NCBI GenBank assembly: GCA_026984795.1
Contig: JALSRK010000028.1
Span: forward strand, 124,001-188,000
From: Solibacteraceae bacterium
GTDB lineage: Bacteria > Acidobacteriota > Terriglobia > Bryobacterales > Bryobacteraceae
Direction: 5' to 3'
Length of the DNA: 64,000 bases
Position 1 is the first letter of the stretch, and each line of letters begins with the position of its first letter. Shown here piece by piece: positions 39,741 through 50,304 of the stretch. The position numbers and the translations under genes are program-made. The notes below the pieces were generated by a model, which worked only from the letters and a program-made list of their open reading frames with translations, was not told the DNA's origin and did no database searches.

Positions 39741-39778
39741 GGGGTCCGGGAAAGCCGATGAGGGCTGGTGGAGTATCG

Positions 39779-40525
39779 ATGCATCCCTACAAGGCAGCTT
39801 CGGAGTCCAAGGCGGAAGAGCGGGAGCGCCTGATCCTCGAGCACCTGCCTCAGGTGCGCTTGATCGCCCGTAGGATTCATGAGCGGTTGCCCGAAAGTGT
39901 CAGTCTGGACGACTTGATCTCGACCGGGATCGTCGGCCTGATCTCAGCCATCGACAACTTCGACGCCCGCCACAAAGTCAAGCTCAAGACTTACGCCGAG
40001 TACAAGATTCGGGGCGCGATCCTCGATAGCCTGCGCGGGCTTGACTGGGCGCCGAGAAAACAGCGTAAGAAGGCCAAGCAGATCGAGGCGGCCATCGCCG
40101 TCCTGGAGCAGAAGCTGCAACGCAGCCCGTCCGAAGAGGAGATCGCTTCCGAGCTCGGCATCGACCTGGACGAGTACCACTCCTGGCTGGTCGACGTACG
40201 CGGCGTCAATCTCGGCAGCCTGGAAGCCGTCACCGGCGAAGAGGACGGCCGCGACCTGCTCCAGTTCATCTCCGACAGCGAAGAGCACTGGCCCTCACGC
40301 CTGGTGGAGCGCTCCGAACTCGAACGGGTTCTGGCCGAGGCGATCGAGAAGATGCCCTACATCGAGCGGACGATACTTAGCCTGTACTACTACGAGGAAC
40401 TCACGTTGCGCGAGGTGGCCAAGATCGTAAAGCTGCATGAGTCCCGGGTCTCGCAGCTCAAGAGCCAGGCGATTCTGCGCCTGCGCAGCTACATCCAGAA
40501 ACGCTGGCCGGGAGGGCGCGACTAA
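39779..40525 (+). CDS. fliA: FliA/WhiG-family sigma factor (sigma-28)
   Basis: 248 residues. Region 2 is ERERLILEHLPQVRLIARRI, LDDLISTGIVGLISAIDNFD and FKTYA-like LKTYAEYKIRGAILDSLRGL with DWAPRKQRKK; region 3 is LEQKLQRSPSEEEIASELGI; region 4 is MPYIERTILSLYYYEELTLR and EVAKIVKLHESRVSQLKSQA. The factor directs RNA polymerase to late flagellar genes. I chose ATG 39779 because GGTGGAG lies 6 bases upstream; ATG 39758 is an alternative. No anti-sigma factor FlgM was found in the window. Confidence 0.95.
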   Translation: MHPYKAASESKAEERERLILEHLPQVRLIARRIHERLPESVSLDDLISTGIVGLISAIDNFDARHKVKLKTYAEYKIRGAILDSLRGLDWAPRKQRKKAKQIEAAIAVLEQKLQRSPSEEEIASELGIDLDEYHSWLVDVRGVNLGSLEAVTGEEDGRDLLQFISDSEEHWPSRLVERSELERVLAEAIEKMPYIERTILSLYYYEELTLREVAKIVKLHESRVSQLKSQAILRLRSYIQKRWPGGRD

Positions 40526-40564
40526 GCGGTCCGGCGGTTGGGCCGCCGAAGAAGGACGGCAGCC

Positions 40565-41410
40565 ATGGAAGCCAAGGAATCAAGCAGCGCCGCACGCATC
40601 CTGGAATGGGTTGCCGAAGAGTGGCGGAAGACCGTCGCCGCCATCTTGGAAACCTTTATCGGGGAGGCGGTGGAAACCAGCGCCGCGTCCGGGTCGCCCC
40701 CGGAAGGGCTATCCTGGCAGCGAATCGACTTCGACCTTGCTCCAGGAGCATCCGTCTTCGTGGGTGTGGATCCGGAGGACCGGAACCGGATTGCCGGGGC
40801 GATGCTCGAGGCTACTTCAGGCTCCTCCGGGGCCCAGGACGAGGCCGAGGCGGCGGCCGTTTGCGAGGAGTGTTTTTCACAAGCGGCGGCCGGGTTGGCT
40901 CAGGCGTTGACTAGCCGCCTGGGCGGGGAAACGGCGCCCAGCGGGAAGACCGAAGCGCCTCCCCCGCCGGGGACCTCCTTCCGGGTGGTGACGGTCCGGC
41001 TGCCCGGCGGCGCCGAAGCATCCCAATGGCTGGCGGTGTCCGCCGCGCTGGCGGATGTCGTTTCGGCGCCGCAAGCCCCCGCTCCCGACGCTCCACTGGA
41101 ACCGCCGCGGGAACGCGCCCGCCTCGGTCCAGGGGTTTCCGGCGATTCTTGCGGGGGCGTCGAGGTGCTCCTCGATGTCGAACTCCCGGTCAGCGCCTCG
41201 TTCGGGCGGGCCCACCTGCCGCTCAAGGACGTGCTGAAACTGACTTCTGGCTCCATCGTGGAACTCAACCGTTCGGTTTCCGAGCCGGTGGAGATCATCG
41301 TCAACAACTGTGTCATCGCCCGCGGCGAGGTTGTCGTCGTCGAGGGCAATTACGGCGTGCGCATCACCGAGATCATCAGCCGTTGCGAACGGCTCCGCAC
41401 ACTGATTTGA
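40565..41410 (+). CDS. FliY/FliN-like protein with C-terminal SpoA domain
   Basis: 281 residues. The N-terminal 150 residues (ILEWVAEEWRKTVAAILETF, EAAAVCEECFSQAAAGLAQA) suggest a degenerate CheC/FliM-like helical domain. A Pro/Ala-rich linker follows, then a clear SpoA domain: VLLDVELPVSASFGRAHLPL, KDVLKLTSGSIVELNRSVSE and VIARGEVVVVEGNYGVRITE. This layout is that of FliY, a switch component that may also dephosphorylate CheY; CheC active-site motifs are not apparent. It is a second FliN-type protein beside the one at 32896. ATG 40565 has AAGGA about 9 bases upstream. Confidence 0.82.
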   Translation: MEAKESSSAARILEWVAEEWRKTVAAILETFIGEAVETSAASGSPPEGLSWQRIDFDLAPGASVFVGVDPEDRNRIAGAMLEATSGSSGAQDEAEAAAVCEECFSQAAAGLAQALTSRLGGETAPSGKTEAPPPPGTSFRVVTVRLPGGAEASQWLAVSAALADVVSAPQAPAPDAPLEPPRERARLGPGVSGDSCGGVEVLLDVELPVSASFGRAHLPLKDVLKLTSGSIVELNRSVSEPVEIIVNNCVIARGEVVVVEGNYGVRITEIISRCERLRTLI

Positions 41411-44625: not shown

Positions 44626-45285
44626 CTACGAGCAGCCCCGGCCGAGCTTCAACTTCTTCCGCGTAGCCGGCTTCTTCCGCGGCGTGGTCTTGGGCGGCGG
44701 AGGCGGAGCCGCTGCCGGGGCGGCGGAACCCTGCGGCTGCCCGGGGGCCCCCATGAAGTACGACCGGATCTGCTTCGCCCGCTGGTAGCCGGCCGGATCC
44801 TGGTCCTCGGACCACAGGCTCCGGGGCGTCATCACCTCGGCCCACCACGCGCTGATGCCGGCCTTCAGCGAATAGGCGTCATAGCCCTTCAGCGCCAACA
44901 GCAACTGCGCCTGCGCGGAGTGGCCCGCCCCCAGCCCGTAGACGACGATCTTCTTGCCGCGTTCCAGCCGCTTCAGCCCGGCCGCCGTAAACAGCTCGCT
45001 CATCGGAATGTTCACCGCCGTCGGAATGTGATAGTCATCGAACTTCCACGGCTCCCGGATGTCAACGAGCTGGAAATCGTCCCGTTTCTCGATCAGCCAT
45101 TGCGCCAGCTCGCCCGGGGTGACGTGGTCCTGCTGGGAGACGATCACTTCCGCAATCGATTCCGCGTTTATCGGCCCCGCGCCTGCGCCCGTCGCCAGCG
45201 TCGAGCCGAACGCCAGCACCACGCCCAGCAACAGCGCGGTTCCAGCCGCCACCTGCTTTCCGCTCAAACTCACATTGATCCTCAT
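44626..45285 (-). CDS. Exported rhodanese-like protein lacking the catalytic cysteine
   Basis: 219 residues with an N-terminal signal or anchor (VAAGTALLLGVVLAFGSTLA) and one rhodanese domain: DDFQLVDIREPWKFDDYHIP, TAVNIPMSELF and LLALKGYDAYSLKAGISAWW. In active rhodaneses the loop after VVY starts with cysteine; here it is VVYGLGAGHSAQA with G117, so sulfurtransfer by the usual mechanism is impossible. The C-terminus is Ala/Pro-rich then strongly basic (PRKKPATRKKLKLGRGCS). Its ATG overlaps the YeeE gene stop by 4 bases and it is last in the five-gene redox operon, so a role in binding a sulfur species or scaffolding the complex in the periplasm is plausible. Confidence 0.88.
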   Translation of the reverse strand: MRINVSLSGKQVAAGTALLLGVVLAFGSTLATGAGAGPINAESIAEVIVSQQDHVTPGELAQWLIEKRDDFQLVDIREPWKFDDYHIPTAVNIPMSELFTAAGLKRLERGKKIVVYGLGAGHSAQAQLLLALKGYDAYSLKAGISAWWAEVMTPRSLWSEDQDPAGYQRAKQIRSYFMGAPGQPQGSAAPAAAPPPPPKTTPRKKPATRKKLKLGRGCS

Positions 45286-45902
45286 TCGTTGCCCTCCCCC
45301 GTCGATTTCCCATAGGTCTTGGCGAACAGGTCCCATTCGCCTTCGCTCTTTTCCGCTACCCAGAACGCTCCGACCGCCATCGCCACGACGGCGAGGATCA
45401 CGATCCCCACGTTCAAGTCCAACCACTCCGGCAGAGTCAGTGTTCCGAGCGAACCGGAAACGTAGAACTCCTCCACCGCCGGATACAGCAGCCCGAACAC
45501 CACCCCTCCGGCGACGATTCCGGCAAGGAAGAACAAGGCGTCCAGGCGACCGACCACGGCCGCCACCACCGAAGTCCCTGGGCAGTAGCCGCCCATGATG
45601 AAGCCGGTCCCCAGCAGTAGCCCGCCGAGGAGCTGCGGCCAAACGTAAGTCGGCGGGATGTATACGAGACTCATGTCGATCCACCCCAGCGCCGACAAAT
45701 AGCCCAGGCCCAACATCGCCGTAACAATGGCGGTGAACATCACCTTCAGCACGGACCAGTCCCGGAAGTAGAACTGCCCCGTCAGCTTGCGCGCCGAAGA
45801 GAACCCGGCTCTTTCCAGGAAGAAGCCGAAGAAAAACCCAATCACCACCGCCAGCGTCAAGTAGACGCCGAGAGAGAACGATTCAAAGTAAGGAGCGTTC
45901 AC
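45282..45902 (-). CDS. YeeE/YedE-family transporter half (second half)
   Basis: 206 residues with about five membrane helices. YeeE/YedE proteins carry thiosulfate or other sulfur compounds inward and contain conserved cysteines in short helices. Seen here: GFFFGFFLERAGFSSARKLT, GLLLGTGFIMGGYCPGTSVV (CPGT motif) and AAVVGRLDALFFLAGIVAGG. The GTG start at 45902 overlaps the upstream stop (GTGA). The partner half is the C-terminal part of the preceding protein. Canonical YeeE is one chain with two such halves, so the transporter appears to be split between two genes. Confidence 0.88.
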   Translation of the reverse strand: MNAPYFESFSLGVYLTLAVVIGFFFGFFLERAGFSSARKLTGQFYFRDWSVLKVMFTAIVTAMLGLGYLSALGWIDMSLVYIPPTYVWPQLLGGLLLGTGFIMGGYCPGTSVVAAVVGRLDALFFLAGIVAGGVVFGLLYPAVEEFYVSGSLGTLTLPEWLDLNVGIVILAVVAMAVGAFWVAEKSEGEWDLFAKTYGKSTGEGNE

Positions 45903-47356
45903 GTCCAATCCCTCCTCAGCAGATACGCACCGGCGAAACCGGCGGCGAAGACCGCCATCATGAAAATCCACGAGCCCGCAGCCAGCACGGCGCCGCCGCT
46001 CAGCGCCTGCCCGCTCGTACACCCGCGCGCAAAGCGCGCGCCGATGGCCGAGAGCATCCCGCCGGTGAACGCCAGCGCGTAACGCCGCCGGTTGGAAATC
46101 CGCGGACCTTTCTCGACCATCACCTTCAGCCGGCCTCCCAGCCAGCCGGATACGAAGCCGCCGATCATCACGCCGATCACTTCAAACACCACGAAGTTCA
46201 CCAGCGGGGACTGCCCTTCGCCGAGATAGCGGCCCCAGAACGGACTGGCGGCGGCCTGTTCGGGAGCTACTGCGCCCAGCAAGGCCGCTGTCCACCGCAC
46301 AAAGGCGCTCGACGCCCCCAGTCCTTCGCCCATCAGAATGAAGCTCGCCAGCAGCGTCAGCCCCAGGCCGAATCCGGCCGCATAAGGCGGCCAGTCGTTC
46401 GGACTCCGCAGCGCCCGGCGAAGCCAGGACCCGCGCTCGGCCGCCGGCCGCTCCTGGGCTGAAGCAAGCGGCTCAGTAGGCTCAGTAAAGGTTGTGTTGC
46501 GTTCCTCACTTGTCGCCATTTCATCTCCTGTTGCCGTCGCCCCGGCTCCAGCTTCTCCGTTCGTTCTGGCCCACGCCAGTTCCAACTTCCGCCTCCACTT
46601 CAGTTCCTCCAGCTTGTACTCGCGCCACCACTTGAAGTGGTGCCGGTAGGCGAACAACTCATTCACTTTGCCGGTGAACATGGAAAAGAACGCCGGCTTT
46701 TCCTCAGGGAATACGGCGGCCATGTAGACATGGACCATCAGCCCGGAAACGATCAGGCCCACCGCCGTGAAGTGCGCCACGATGGCCGCCCGGATCCACT
46801 CGGGGCTTCCCCAGTGGAAGGTCATCATCAACCCGGTGATCATGATCACGGGCACGAGCGAGTAGACAGCCAGGGCGAATAGCTTCTGGCCCGCATTGTA
46901 GTTGCTCTGCGGGGGAAGCGGTTCGTCGCTGCGCCCGAGCAGCCGCAGGGCGCGGACCATCAGCCAGCGGATGTCATCCCTGTCCAGCGCGATCTCCTTG
47001 CGGTAGACCTGCCGCAGCAGGTAAGTCCGGAAGCCGAACGTCCCGTAGATCGCGAAGACGAAGATCCAGGCCAGGCCCACCGCTATGTGAAAGTGGAGCA
47101 GGTTGGACCGCGTCCCGAACAGCGTCTCGACCATCCGGATGTACCATTCCGGCGCGAAGCGGAACTCGGGCGAAGAGATGAGCGCCGCGCCCGTGGCCAC
47201 CTCCAGGAACCAGACGGTGGCGTTGAACCAGTGAAGCAGGATGATGGCCACATGATGTTTCTTGATCTGCTTCTGCGCCATCGCCTCGGCCTGCTGCGGG
47301 CTCAGCGGGACGGGCTTCTCAGGGATCTCCGGAAACTTCGCCGTTTCTGTCGCCAT
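45899..47356 (-). CDS. Fusion of formate-dehydrogenase-gamma-type cytochrome b with a YeeE/YedE half
   Basis: 485 residues. Residues about 30-240 form a four-helix di-heme cytochrome b of the FdnI/FdoI type, with likely heme histidines in KKHHVAIILLHWFNATVWFL, NLLHFHIAVGLAWIFVFAIY and IVAHFTAVGLIVSGLMVHVY; the C-terminal part (FTGKVNELFAYRHHFKWWRE) is typical of that subunit. A linker of about 50 residues follows. Residues about 325-480 are a YeeE/YedE half with GGFVSGWLGGRLKVMVEKGP and IGARFARGCTSGQALSGGAV (GC-x-SG motif). It should pass electrons between the membrane quinone pool and the ferredoxin subunit while forming half of a sulfur-compound transporter. Gene spacing is 3 bases upstream and a 4-base overlap downstream. 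Confidence 0.87.
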   Translation of the reverse strand: MATETAKFPEIPEKPVPLSPQQAEAMAQKQIKKHHVAIILLHWFNATVWFLEVATGAALISSPEFRFAPEWYIRMVETLFGTRSNLLHFHIAVGLAWIFVFAIYGTFGFRTYLLRQVYRKEIALDRDDIRWLMVRALRLLGRSDEPLPPQSNYNAGQKLFALAVYSLVPVIMITGLMMTFHWGSPEWIRAAIVAHFTAVGLIVSGLMVHVYMAAVFPEEKPAFFSMFTGKVNELFAYRHHFKWWREYKLEELKWRRKLELAWARTNGEAGAGATATGDEMATSEERNTTFTEPTEPLASAQERPAAERGSWLRRALRSPNDWPPYAAGFGLGLTLLASFILMGEGLGASSAFVRWTAALLGAVAPEQAAASPFWGRYLGEGQSPLVNFVVFEVIGVMIGGFVSGWLGGRLKVMVEKGPRISNRRRYALAFTGGMLSAIGARFARGCTSGQALSGGAVLAAGSWIFMMAVFAAGFAGAYLLRRDWT

Positions 47357-47359
47357 GGC

Positions 47360-48091
47360 CTAATCCTCGAACTGTTCCTCGCCGTGCCAGAGCTGGTAGA
47401 AGAACGCCACCGCCTGGCCCAGGAACGTGGCGCCGACAGCCGCGAACACCAGCGGTTTCACCACCTTGCTCCACCAGTCGCCGGCTTTCGGCATACGTGG
47501 CTCCCGCGGGGCGAACCTCGCCGCGACCAGCTCCAGTTGCTGTTCTGTTCCCAGGTAATACACGTTCGGCCCGACCGCTACCTCATCGGTTTCGAGCCTC
47601 TTGGCTCCACGGTCATACACCAGCCGGAAGACTTCGCTCGAGCGGTCTTCGAGGTCGCCGAAGAACTTCGCGTGGGCCGTGCACGTCTCCACGCACGCGG
47701 GCAGTTCTCCCCGCTGGAGCCGGGCGCTGCAGAAATCGCACTTGTCCACCTTGTTCGTGACCGGGTCGATGTGGCGGGCGTCGTACGGGCAGGCTTCGAC
47801 GCAGAAGCCGCACCCGATACAGAGATCCTTGTCCACCGCGACGATGCCGTCGGTTCCCTGGAATGTCGCCCCGGTCGGGCAGGGCTTCACACACGGCGGG
47901 TCGTCGCAATGGTTGCACTGGGAAACGAAGACGCTCTCCATCACGTTCGGGAACTTGCCGATGGCCCCGGTGGAAGCGACTTTCGTGCGCGCGAAGCCGG
48001 GCGGCACGTTCCATTCCACGTTGCAGGCCACCGTGCAGGCGTGGCAGGCGACGCACTTCTTCAGATCGATCACCATTGCGTAGCGCGCCAT
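47360..48091 (-). CDS. Four-cluster 4Fe-4S ferredoxin subunit with C-terminal membrane helix
   Basis: 243 residues of the DmsB/PsrB/FdnH type. Cysteine groups are CVACHACTVACN (C13-C23), CNHCDDPPCVKPCPTGA, CIGCGFCVEACPYDARH and CDFCSARLQRGELPACVETC, enough for four 4Fe-4S clusters. A C-terminal membrane helix (VVKPLVFAAVGATFLGQAVA) resembles FdnH and HybA and would hold the subunit on the periplasmic face next to the cytochrome b. It should wire the molybdenum subunit to the heme subunit. The ATG shares one base with the stop of the catalytic gene, and its stop is 3 bases from the cytochrome gene. Confidence 0.94.
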   Translation of the reverse strand: MARYAMVIDLKKCVACHACTVACNVEWNVPPGFARTKVASTGAIGKFPNVMESVFVSQCNHCDDPPCVKPCPTGATFQGTDGIVAVDKDLCIGCGFCVEACPYDARHIDPVTNKVDKCDFCSARLQRGELPACVETCTAHAKFFGDLEDRSSEVFRLVYDRGAKRLETDEVAVGPNVYYLGTEQQLELVAARFAPREPRMPKAGDWWSKVVKPLVFAAVGATFLGQAVAFFYQLWHGEEQFED

Positions 48092-50304
48092 CAGCCGGCC
48101 TCCTCTCCACTCAGCAGGCGGACGAAGTTCACCCGCATGCCGGTACCGCCCATCATCGGATCGATCTTGACCCGCGTCATGAGCCCGGCGTCGGAAGCCC
48201 CCTTGCCATACGCCAGATGCAGCTTCGGGGAGCGATGCCCGAAGCCGTGGACCATGTAGGCGCAGTCCGGCCGGATTCCCGGCGTAACCCGGAGCCGGAC
48301 GGCGTTCGTCTGCACGCCGTCGGAGTTCTCCAGCACCACCATCTGCCCGTCGGCCAGCGACAGCGCCCGGGCCGCCTCGTCATTGACCCATACTTCGTTC
48401 TCGTCCATCAGCCCGTCCAGGATCGCGTTGTTCTCGCTGCGGGCGAACGAGTGCACCGGCGCCCGTCCGTAGATGAGCCGGAACCAGCCCGGCGGTGGAT
48501 CTTCGACCGGCGTGTACCGCGGCAACGGGTCGAACCCGTACTCTTCAGCCAGCGTCGAGTAGAGCTCGATCTTGCCGCTGGGCGTCGGAAACAGCGGGCC
48601 GTCCTCCGGACGCCGGTTCTCCAGGTACGGGCGCCCCGGGAACTTCACCGCCCCGCGCGCCCGCAGCGCCGCCGGGTTCACGCCCAGCGGCTTCACCAGC
48701 ATCTCCAGGTGCTCTTCCGGCGTTTCCCACGGAAGATACGCCTTGAGCCCCAGCCGCTTCGCCAGCTCCTTGGCGATCCACCAGCCCGGCCGGGACTCGT
48801 ACATCGGTTTCACGGCCGGGAACCGCACGGCGAGGAACGGCTCTTTGGCCGTCACCACCACGTGCGGCATGTCGTAGCGCTCCAGATAGGTGGCCTCCGG
48901 AAGTACCAGGTCGGCGTAGAGCGTCTGCTCCACCGGAAGCACGTCCACCACCGCCAGCAGGTCCAGCTTGTCGATCGCTTGCAGCGTCTTTTCGCGCTGG
49001 GGGATGCTTTCGAGCACGTTCTGCCCATATACGATCCAGCCTTTGATCGGGTACGGCTGCCCCGTAAGCGTGGCGTCGATGAGCCCGTTCGTCACTCCTT
49101 GTTCCTCGGAAGCGAACGGGTATTTGTCGCCGGCGCCGTCGGCCCGGCCTCTTTCCGATTCCGGCATCGGCGGCGTCGGGATCTTGCCCGTCGAGATCGG
49201 TGTCGGCAGGAAGATTCCTCCCTTGCGCCCCCACGCCCCCAGCAGGGCCGTCACGATGGCCATGGCCCGCGCCCGCTGGGAATCGTCCCCGTACCAGGTG
49301 ACGTGCCGTCCCGGGTGCAGCGCCACCGCCGGCTTCGCCTCCGCCATCGCCCGCGCCGTCGCCCGGATCTTCGCCGCCGGGATCTCGGTGATCGGCTCGG
49401 CCCACTCCGGCGTCAACCCCTGGACGTGCCGCGCCAGCCGGTCGAATCCCGTCGCATACCGCCGGATGTAGTCCCGGTCATAGGCGCCGTCGGAGATCAA
49501 CACGTTCATCCATGCCAGAAGCAGCGCGATATCTGTGCCCGGCCGGATCGGCAGCCACCAGTCGGCTTTGGCCGCGGCAGTGGACAGGCGCGGATCGACG
49601 ACGATCAGCTTCGCCCCCCGCCCCAGCGCTCCGGCGAACTGCGTGATCTGGCTCGTGAAGACGTTCTCGCCGATGTGCGTGCCGATCAGCACGATCAGCC
49701 GCGTCTCGTCGAAGTCCACCGGCTCGGGTGAGCCGAGCCCTTGCCCGAAGGTCAGGGCGTAGCCGACCTCCCGCGGTCCCCGGCACTGGGCGAACGCCGG
49801 TTCGGCATGATTCGGCGTCCCGTAGGCCTCCATCACGATCCGGAAGAATGCCGAGGCGACCCCGTGCGGGAAGAACGCTACGGCCTCCGGACCGTGTTTC
49901 GCTTTGATCTCCTGCAGCCGTTCGGCCAGGTAGTCCAGCGCCGTTTCCCAGCTCACCCGCCGGAACTTGCCTTCTCCCCGGGCCCCGGTGCGCAGCATCG
50001 GGTATTTCAGCCGGTCCGGATCGTAAGTCAGCCCGATGCCGGCGTTGCCCCGGGCGCAGAGGCGGCCTTTGGTGAGCGGATGGTCCGGGTTGCCCTCGAT
50101 GCGGACCACCTTGCCGTTTTCCACCTCGGCGAGAATACCGCAACGCCAGAAGCACATCTCGCAGTTCGAGGCGATGGTGTGGACCGGGGTGACGCCGTGA
50201 TGGCCCGGCGGCGCCGGTCCTTCACCCGGCGCGCCTCTTGCGGCGCCGGCCATCGTGCCTGCCACCGCCGCTGAACGCAGGAAGTCGCGGCGCGTTCCGC
50301 CCAT
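48091..50304 (-). CDS. Tat-exported molybdopterin-guanine-dinucleotide oxidoreductase, PsrA/PhsA-like
   Basis: 737 residues. The N-terminus TRRDFLRSAAVAGTMAGAA is a twin-arginine signal. The 4Fe-4S site is C48-x2-C51-x3-C55-x27-C83 (NCEMCFWRCGI, GRLCARGN). The likely Mo/W ligand is C174 in FAQCRGPREVGYALTFG. Cofactor-binding stretches include IVLIGTHIGENVFTSQITQF, LIVVDPRLSTAAAKADWWLP and AYMVHGFGHRSPKLHLAYGK. It is of the DMSO-reductase family, nearer in size and layout to polysulfide, thiosulfate and related sulfur-redox enzymes than to formate dehydrogenase. Physiological direction and substrate are unknown; the linked YeeE and rhodanese genes favour a sulfur compound. AGGAGG lies 4-5 bases before ATG. 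Confidence 0.92.
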   Translation of the reverse strand: MGGTRRDFLRSAAVAGTMAGAARGAPGEGPAPPGHHGVTPVHTIASNCEMCFWRCGILAEVENGKVVRIEGNPDHPLTKGRLCARGNAGIGLTYDPDRLKYPMLRTGARGEGKFRRVSWETALDYLAERLQEIKAKHGPEAVAFFPHGVASAFFRIVMEAYGTPNHAEPAFAQCRGPREVGYALTFGQGLGSPEPVDFDETRLIVLIGTHIGENVFTSQITQFAGALGRGAKLIVVDPRLSTAAAKADWWLPIRPGTDIALLLAWMNVLISDGAYDRDYIRRYATGFDRLARHVQGLTPEWAEPITEIPAAKIRATARAMAEAKPAVALHPGRHVTWYGDDSQRARAMAIVTALLGAWGRKGGIFLPTPISTGKIPTPPMPESERGRADGAGDKYPFASEEQGVTNGLIDATLTGQPYPIKGWIVYGQNVLESIPQREKTLQAIDKLDLLAVVDVLPVEQTLYADLVLPEATYLERYDMPHVVVTAKEPFLAVRFPAVKPMYESRPGWWIAKELAKRLGLKAYLPWETPEEHLEMLVKPLGVNPAALRARGAVKFPGRPYLENRRPEDGPLFPTPSGKIELYSTLAEEYGFDPLPRYTPVEDPPPGWFRLIYGRAPVHSFARSENNAILDGLMDENEVWVNDEAARALSLADGQMVVLENSDGVQTNAVRLRVTPGIRPDCAYMVHGFGHRSPKLHLAYGKGASDAGLMTRVKIDPMMGGTGMRVNFVRLLSGEEAG

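Follow-up and report, generated by a model that had tools for sequence, protein, structure and literature searches.

The redox-transport operon

The window described here is a stretch of 64,000 nucleotides from the genome of a Solibacteraceae bacterium (contig JALSRK010000028.1). At 44626-50304 it carries five open reading frames (ORFs), all on the minus strand, which encode a molybdenum (Mo) oxidoreductase, a ferredoxin, a fusion of a cytochrome b with one half of a YeeE channel, the other half of the channel, and a rhodanese-like protein with a lone cysteine on its C-terminal tail. They represent a genuine system for sulfur redox and transport, found repeatedly, in which a C-terminal thiol arm is strongly conserved; no description of it was found. 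The genes encode, 5′ to 3′, the Mo subunit (48091-50304; 737 residues), the ferredoxin subunit (47360-48091; 243 residues), the cytochrome b-YeeE fusion (45899-47356; 485 residues), the YeeE N-terminal half (YeeE-N; 45282-45902; 206 residues, GTG start) and the rhodanese-like protein (44626-45285; 219 residues, membrane-anchored). Read directly, the junctions in the same order are a 1-base overlap, a 3-base gap and two 4-base overlaps; upstream of the first ATG, that of the Mo subunit, stands AAGGAGGA. These positions and tight junctions are those given in a preliminary description of the sequence, and its domain assignments agree with Pfam, which finds Molybdopterin, Fe4S4 and binding domains in the Mo subunit, Fer4_11 in the ferredoxin, Ni_hydr_CYTB (cytochrome b561) and then Sulf_transp in the fusion, Sulf_transp again in the fourth protein and Rhodanese in the fifth.

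The order Mo subunit, iron-sulfur subunit, membrane subunit, YeeE C-terminal half (YeeE-C), YeeE-N and rhodanese, a search for which had been suggested, is found again in genomes of several phyla, as is the linkage of PsrA, YeeE and rhodanese, and this recurrence argues that the arrangement is not due to chance. Its distribution is uneven: neither the fusion protein nor YeeE-C finds a match in two genomes from the family of the window. Of the 143 loci surveyed below, the window alone shows its variant in full: a PsrA head, an FdnI-like cytochrome joined to one YeeE half, and an inactive rhodanese with the tail.

The catalytic subunit

The preliminary description had proposed sulfur chemistry for a Mo enzyme encoded together with YeeE, and the comparisons bear this out. 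The closest solved match of the Mo subunit is Thermus thermophilus PsrA (751 bits, with residues 5-734 aligned), while the next match in the PDB scores 209. Its best curated profile is PhsA at 524 bits, short of the cut-off of 694 bits of the PhsA equivalog NF012032, and the next profile scores 265; identity to the PhsA of an E. coli plasmid is 33% over 735 columns. By profile and PDB scores it is of PsrA/PhsA type, being closer over its full length to these enzymes than to formate dehydrogenase, dimethyl sulfoxide (DMSO) reductase, Arr or Ttr. The same scores rule out a formate, DMSO or arsenate enzyme. It has the Tat motif TRRDFLR, a set of four cysteines (C48, C51, C55 and C83), which we take to be 4Fe-4S ligands, and a further cysteine, C174 (codon at 49783-49785, minus strand), a candidate Mo ligand whose counterpart in the alignment with Thermus PsrA is the CTAPREV cysteine.

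In a tree of 48 catalytic subunits, with FdnG and PhsA as the only outside references, the window's Mo subunit falls in a clade of seven rows (100/99) within a clade of 11 rows (97/89) of cytochrome b enzymes. Outside the latter lie 32 sampled NrfD-type relatives, E. coli PhsA and FdnG, together with one cytochrome-type row, L208. One member, L170, whose third subunit lies beyond its stretch, was assigned to the cytochrome group by similarity. Of the tree suggested in the preliminary description, the comparison with FdnG is covered here and sets the catalytic subunit apart from it; SreA, SoeA and TtrA were compared by profile or PDB scores only, and, like ArrA and Thermus PsrA, are not rows of the tree.

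The electron path

The ferredoxin subunit contains 16 cysteines, which would hold four clusters, in a PsrB-like core (176 bits to Thermus PsrB) followed by an FdnH-like C-terminal membrane anchor. The cytochrome domain of the fusion (46598-47254, minus strand) has His 42, 88 or 90, 195 and 209 as candidate heme ligands. It has the FdnI fold (1kqf_C; Foldseek E 6e-8), and the FdnI cytochrome is the one match of the fusion model below E 0.001. By BLAST it is closer to FdnI (E 4e-11) than to PhsC (E 0.04), so a PhsC-type cytochrome b is not supported, and Pfam, Foldseek and BLAST agree that the membrane subunit is of cytochrome b561/FdnI type and not of NrfD type. The enzyme thus combines a catalytic head of PsrA type with an electron path of FdnHI type. 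Cytochrome b as the membrane subunit, as first described, thus holds for the window; it does not hold for the system at large, since most PsrAB loci use NrfD and others have an octaheme cytochrome in place of the Mo enzyme.

Fusion of the cytochrome with YeeE-C is also seen in L045 and L046. These stand apart from the window in the trees of both the catalytic subunit and YeeE-C, and the fusion therefore seems to have arisen twice. The YeeE-C tree itself is poorly resolved, with unsettled bootstrap values, and L045 and L046 lie in it on a long branch apart from the rest. In L208 (3345-4757) ferredoxin and cytochrome b share one open frame, a possible further fusion.

The split YeeE channel

The Sulf_transp model has 310 positions, of which 160-308 are matched in the fusion (71.5 bits) and 2-153 in the fourth gene (61.5 bits), against a cut-off of 27. 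One YeeE is therefore divided between two genes, with the C-terminal half fused behind the cytochrome and encoded before the N-terminal half. The C-terminal, PmpA-like half (45902-46450, minus strand) has a single cysteine, Cys446 (codon at 46019-46021, minus strand), which by counting in the printed alignment occupies the position of C293 in StYeeE and is invariant in 22/22 sequences. The N-terminal, PmpB-like half (45282-45902) likewise has a single cysteine, Cys107, within GGYCPGT and invariant in all 24 sequences aligned. In the window, exactly one cysteine is present in each of three proteins: the fusion, YeeE-N and the rhodanese.

According to two papers, C293 is the first of the three cysteines of StYeeE (PMC11073785), and PmpA and PmpB are the C- and N-terminal halves of YeeE, carry the equivalents of C293 and C91 and are proposed to form a heterodimer (PMC11582611). 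The window's two halves thus correspond to YeeE/TsuA and to PmpA-PmpB in having C293 and C91 equivalents, the assignment of Cys107 as the second pore cysteine being based on Pfam, on conservation and on the description of PmpB in PMC11582611. They differ from PmpA-PmpB in the fusion of the PmpA-like half to a cytochrome and in the order of the halves. With 31.5 and 24.2 bits, they also fall far below the cut-off of the TsuA NCBIfam equivalog (400 bits), and in place of the three pore cysteines of TsuA there is one in each half. The YeeE-C part of the fusion model has lower confidence and no Foldseek match, and no PDB relative was found for YeeE-N alone (P0004).

The rhodanese-like protein and its tail

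Pfam and Foldseek both assign the fifth protein a rhodanese fold. The active-site cysteine is lost, which rules out rhodanese catalysis for the window's protein. The preliminary description had called this rhodanese cysteine-less; in fact it has one cysteine, at the penultimate residue, 218 of 219 (codon at 44632-44634, minus strand), on a conserved C-terminal tail. The tail (residues 180-219; 44629-44748, minus strand) is rich first in Pro and Ala and then in Lys and Arg, and ends in KKLKLGRGCS. It has no predicted secondary structure, and model confidence drops from about residue 180. By Foldseek the fold matches rhodanese-domain structures, which speaks against the homologous fold expected of a SoxY or DsrC family member, a judgement made from these matches and not from direct comparison.

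Loci were collected through the fusion protein or the YeeE-C half (alignment A1), never through the rhodanese. The YeeE-C search finds 38 of the 396 genomes in the window's own phylum at E 1e-15, with 30 places above 150 bits that are well separated from the rest (at most 103 bits). At E 1e-30 it finds 50/282 genomes in the phylum of a Myxococcota locus, 15/297 in that of a Geobacteraceae locus and 50/296 in that of a Bacteroidia locus. The scored set comprises 143 loci having a YeeE-C gene, taken with their surrounding regions; some 18 of about 161 listed places (those above 150 bits and those of the fusion search) fall outside it by rank, not by content. L169, a duplicate of L168, is omitted, the short loci L060-L161 are counted only through larger regions covering most of the same places, and tail counts are confined to ORFs that end in a stop codon within the stretch.

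At 124 of these loci the terminal Cys tail is carried by a rhodanese-domain protein. The tail is instead on the Mo subunit at three (L045, L046, L217), on YeeE-N at four (L225, L226, L228, L229) and on another secreted-looking protein at three (L034, L227, L170), while seven are cut by a contig end (L035, L048, L178, L195, L200, L201, L212). At seven of the 124 (L058, L230-L232, L234-L236), a rhodanese fused to or following YeeE-N is untailed, and the tail is on a rhodanese or multi-rhodanese protein just upstream; in the two such proteins checked, those of L058 and L232, Pfam finds a metallo-beta-lactamase domain. Multi-rhodanese proteins with the tail AGC or VGC, just before the YeeE pair, are seen in L058 (10154-12274), L230, L232, L234, L235 and L236. 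In L254 (7630-8242) the rhodanese is in two overlapping frames, the second with a Gly-Cys tail, which points to a frameshift or a sequencing error.

The terminal Cys tail is the most conserved feature of the rhodanese family. In an alignment of 62 rhodanese rows the only invariant residues are G143, which belongs to the fold, G217 and C218. Gly directly precedes the tail cysteine in 125 of 128 tailed ORFs, and an equal number (125/128) have at least two Lys or Arg within the 12 residues before it. No cysteine is found around the active-site position in 118 of 127 tailed rhodanese ORFs, and six of the nine exceptions are multi-rhodanese proteins; among untailed rhodaneses, 16 have a cysteine there and six, including that of L176, have none.

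A cysteine falls in the last three residues of 128/153 rhodanese-domain ORFs, the unrelated rhodaneses of the loci included. The same count gives 3/91 for Mo subunits and none for YeeE-C (0/144), ferredoxin (0/89), NrfD (0/79), octaheme cytochromes (0/34) or the cytochrome b ORFs found with two models (0/11 and 0/32). The figure for YeeE-N, 76/141, is due to rhodanese fusions and to the four tailed YeeE-N cases. Control rhodaneses, the best one from each of 30 phylum-sample genomes and three more from the window's genome, have a cysteine in the last four residues in two of 33 cases, one of which is the window's own protein. These controls and the counts on other subunits rule out a terminal cysteine by chance.

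Where the rhodanese is untailed, the tail tends to be found elsewhere. Other genes of the system carry it in 0/400 cases at the 125 loci with a tailed rhodanese and in 7/72 at the 22 loci without one (Fisher p 1.5e-6); four loci without YeeE-C are also counted in this test, and its true strength is below that p value because the seven tailed genes represent only two or three independent gains. Within the 11-row cytochrome-type clade the tail is on the rhodanese in the window and L044, on the Mo subunit in L045, L046 and L217, and on a small secreted-looking protein in L040, L041, L042 and L170, with none seen in L043 and L178 cut. The tailed Mo subunits all have Tat motifs, and in L045 and L046, where the tail is on the Mo subunit, the rhodanese retains its catalytic cysteine. 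Judged from these sequences, it is the thiol that is kept and not the scaffold.

Further observations concern the tailed proteins themselves. Small or lipoprotein-like secreted-looking tailed proteins occur in L034, L227, L040, L041, L042 and L170, and those checked in L040 and L042 have no Pfam match. Near cytochrome-type PsrA operons without an adjoining tailed rhodanese, small proteins ending in Gly-Cys lie at 7297-7638 in L041, 13793-14194 in L042 and 10615-11010 in L170, and the C-terminal part of L040 4935-6311 is of the same small secreted-looking family, with a Gly-Cys end. The PsrA-type subunit of L217 (822-4808) has its own Pro/Ala-rich C-terminal extension, ending PPKGGC. The tails of L057 and L208 end GGCGG, which we take to resemble the SoxY motif.

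Redox partners of the module

PsrAB is accompanied by NrfD at 76/143 loci (L168 has an octaheme cytochrome as well, and L042 a separate cytochrome-type operon), by cytochrome b at six, including the window, and by a third subunit of undetermined type at three. An octaheme cytochrome c without PsrAB is found at 33 loci, mostly with cytochrome b561. NrfD alone is present at four, and at 21 none of these redox genes lies within reach, some stretches being cut short. Three octaheme proteins were checked, those of L281, L266 and L279, and all three match PF11783, 'Cytochrome c bacterial'; we take the protein to belong to the octaheme tetrathionate reductase family. A parallel cluster free of Mo consists of octaheme cytochrome, cytochrome b561, YeeE-C and a fusion of YeeE-N with a tailed rhodanese (L281 4260-8235, L266 5328-9314, L279 5261-9355 and others); such clusters are seen in genomes of the Bacteroidota and Myxococcota sets and of the window's own phylum.

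A proposed sulfur carrier arm

The operon probably encodes a single membrane complex for the redox chemistry of sulfane sulfur on the outer side of the cytoplasmic membrane, in which the tail thiol of the rhodanese would act as a periplasmic sulfur carrier arm. In this proposal the PsrA/PhsA-type Mo subunit would reduce or oxidise sulfur-sulfur bonds, and the ferredoxin would pass the electrons on to a diheme cytochrome b of FdnI type, which connects with the quinone pool. The split YeeE channel would be made up of the PmpB-like half and the PmpA-like half fused to the cytochrome, each contributing one cysteine. The rhodanese domain, having lost catalysis, may act in docking, and sulfur would be taken up, as a persulfide or S-thiosulfonate, by the single cysteine near the end of its flexible tail of about 40 residues. 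Movement of the tail between the Mo site and the mouth of the channel would then allow this sulfane sulfur either to be reduced or oxidised at the enzyme or to be handed into the channel. The putative thiol relay would comprise Cys218 of the tail and, in the channel, Cys446 at the C293 position and Cys107; its redox partner would be either the Mo site of a PsrA-type subunit or a site in an octaheme protein. Sulfur carriage by the tail thiol, its docking place and the directions of transport and of electron flow are inferred. The carrier arm is best read as analogous to SoxY and DsrC, and not as homologous.

A periplasmic location is suggested by the Tat motif of the Mo subunit, by the signal-like N termini of the small tailed proteins, as judged by eye, and by the positive-inside rule.

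A number of points weigh against this proposal. The periplasmic location of the rhodanese depends on the positive-inside rule: on the N side of the rhodanese anchor Lys and Arg are more numerous in 64 of 98 cases, equal in 15 and fewer in 19, and a looser choice of membrane helix gives no signal (57 vs 54 of 128). No tail is seen at two of the 143 loci, L164 and L176, which have both YeeE halves, and the L176 rhodanese lacks both the active-site cysteine and the tail; the cytochrome-type operon L043 also shows none. The charge of the tail varies, being Lys/Arg-rich on most rhodaneses and acidic at the end on YeeE-N and on the Mo subunits of L045 and L046, so that a single common docking site is not obvious. 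C22 of StYeeE, the third pore cysteine, has no counterpart in the window's halves, and no gene for a TusA/YeeD-like acceptor lies within the operon, a further difference from PmpA-PmpB. The counts are not independent, because the rows are related. No biochemistry was found on any member of the system.

Whether the Gly-Cys arm defines a wider and so far unrecognised class of periplasmic carriers, independent of fold and convergent with SoxY and DsrC, is in our view evenly balanced. Such a class would link split YeeE channels, quinone-coupled sulfur-redox enzymes or both. To judge from the sequences, its carriers would be inactive rhodaneses, the Mo subunit, the YeeE half, beta-lactamase-fold or multi-rhodanese proteins and small secreted proteins, and its redox enzymes PsrAB with NrfD, PsrAB with cytochrome b, or the octaheme cytochrome.

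Alternative explanations

A variant of the same scheme, which we regard as a tentative possibility, is operation in the outward or oxidative direction. Either YeeE would release excess sulfane sulfur onto the tail, with reduction to sulfide outside, or sulfide would be oxidised to polysulfide with electrons delivered to quinone. FdnI-like cytochromes are partners of quinone-reducing enzymes, which fits this direction; Thermus PsrA, to which the Mo subunit is closest among solved structures, is a known reductase, which speaks against it. The accessible text of PMC11582611 and PMC11073785 describes characterised YeeE/TsuA proteins as importers of thiosulfate, again a point for the inward direction, and in that text no direction of transport for this group of split YeeE proteins was found.

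It is unlikely that the Mo, iron-sulfur and cytochrome b subunits are simply an ordinary thiosulfate or polysulfide reductase, and that the YeeE pair and the rhodanese are a separate import cassette sharing its promoter, an explanation compatible with the others given here. The preliminary description had named conservation of the first three genes without YeeE and rhodanese as evidence against its inference, and this is in part what is found: L040, L041, L043, L044 and a second operon in L042 have Mo, iron-sulfur and cytochrome b genes without an adjoining YeeE. Conversely, 58 of the 143 loci have YeeE without PsrAB in the stretch, some being cut short. Against a mere sharing of a promoter, a protein ending in a Gly-Cys tail is encoded close to four of the five YeeE-less operons (all except that of L043), and at 33 of the 58 loci that lack PsrAB an octaheme cytochrome, mostly with cytochrome b561, provides a different redox head of quinone type. 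The cytochrome is, moreover, fused to YeeE-C both in the window and in L045 and L046, which are separate from it in both trees.

A purely structural role for the terminal cysteine, as a lasting disulfide or thioether tether to the Mo subunit or YeeE or as a site of lipidation or processing, with no sulfur carried, is quite unlikely: tethering would fit a single cysteine at the end of a flexible segment, and a basic tail may bind membranes, but the tail is also found on the Mo subunit and YeeE-N themselves, which makes a tether superfluous, the tails read have no hydrophobic segment directly before the cysteine, the tailed loci are those of sulfur-type redox enzymes or sulfur channels, and two tails have the SoxY-like end noted above.

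Relation to known systems

PsrC is of NrfD type. The catalytic and ferredoxin subunits of PsrABC from Thermus thermophilus (PDB 2vpw) are clearly related to those of the window (751 and 176 bits), with a catalytic-subunit alignment that covers almost the full chain, whereas the window's membrane subunit is an FdnI-like cytochrome b fused to YeeE-C. Thermus PsrA has no Cys tail in its aligned part, its last 20 residues lying outside the alignment. PhsABC of the E. coli plasmid pSE11-3 shares a PsrA/PhsA-type catalytic subunit and a cytochrome b membrane subunit, and differs in the affinity of the cytochrome, as given above; by annotation phsABC has as neighbours genes for a symporter and a transposase and a truncated hypothetical gene. 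FdnGHI has the cytochrome fold and the ferredoxin membrane anchor in common with the window, whose catalytic subunit is, by profile score and tree, not a formate dehydrogenase. SoxY and DsrC likewise have one cysteine at or near a flexible C terminus, beside Gly; here the fold is that of a rhodanese, and the tail is on several different proteins, together with PsrA-type and octaheme enzymes.

The nearest account found is that of Desulfurivibrio dismutans, where, according to the accessible text of PMC12142623, a Psr operon encodes a protein with a signal peptide and three rhodanese domains. A Psr operon with a secreted rhodanese-domain protein is thus common to both, while neither a terminal Cys tail nor YeeE is mentioned for that operon in the same text. 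MOLY, YTD and Phs/Psr genes are discussed in PMC12998232 and PMC13047784, again in the text available, without a terminal Cys tail. Among the matches listed, a literature search gave no account of a terminal-Cys rhodanese or of the gene set; this is a weak negative, since most subscription journals and preprints lay outside the search.

The proposal bears on how poorly soluble or reactive sulfur gets to the active sites of Psr and Phs enzymes, and on how YeeE channels are loaded outside the membrane. An arm and two channel halves with one cysteine each make a concrete relay, open to test by one point mutation. If it is true, many genes now annotated as rhodaneses would be re-annotated as carriers, PsrA-type and octaheme enzymes would be linked through one module, and a terminal Gly-Cys beside YeeE or PsrA genes would serve as a sequence mark for sulfur-respiring lineages in metagenomes.

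Past the 3′ end of the operon, on the plus strand at 39758-41410, the translations indicate a flagellar-type sigma factor and a gene with a product similar to the FliN/FliM switch family.

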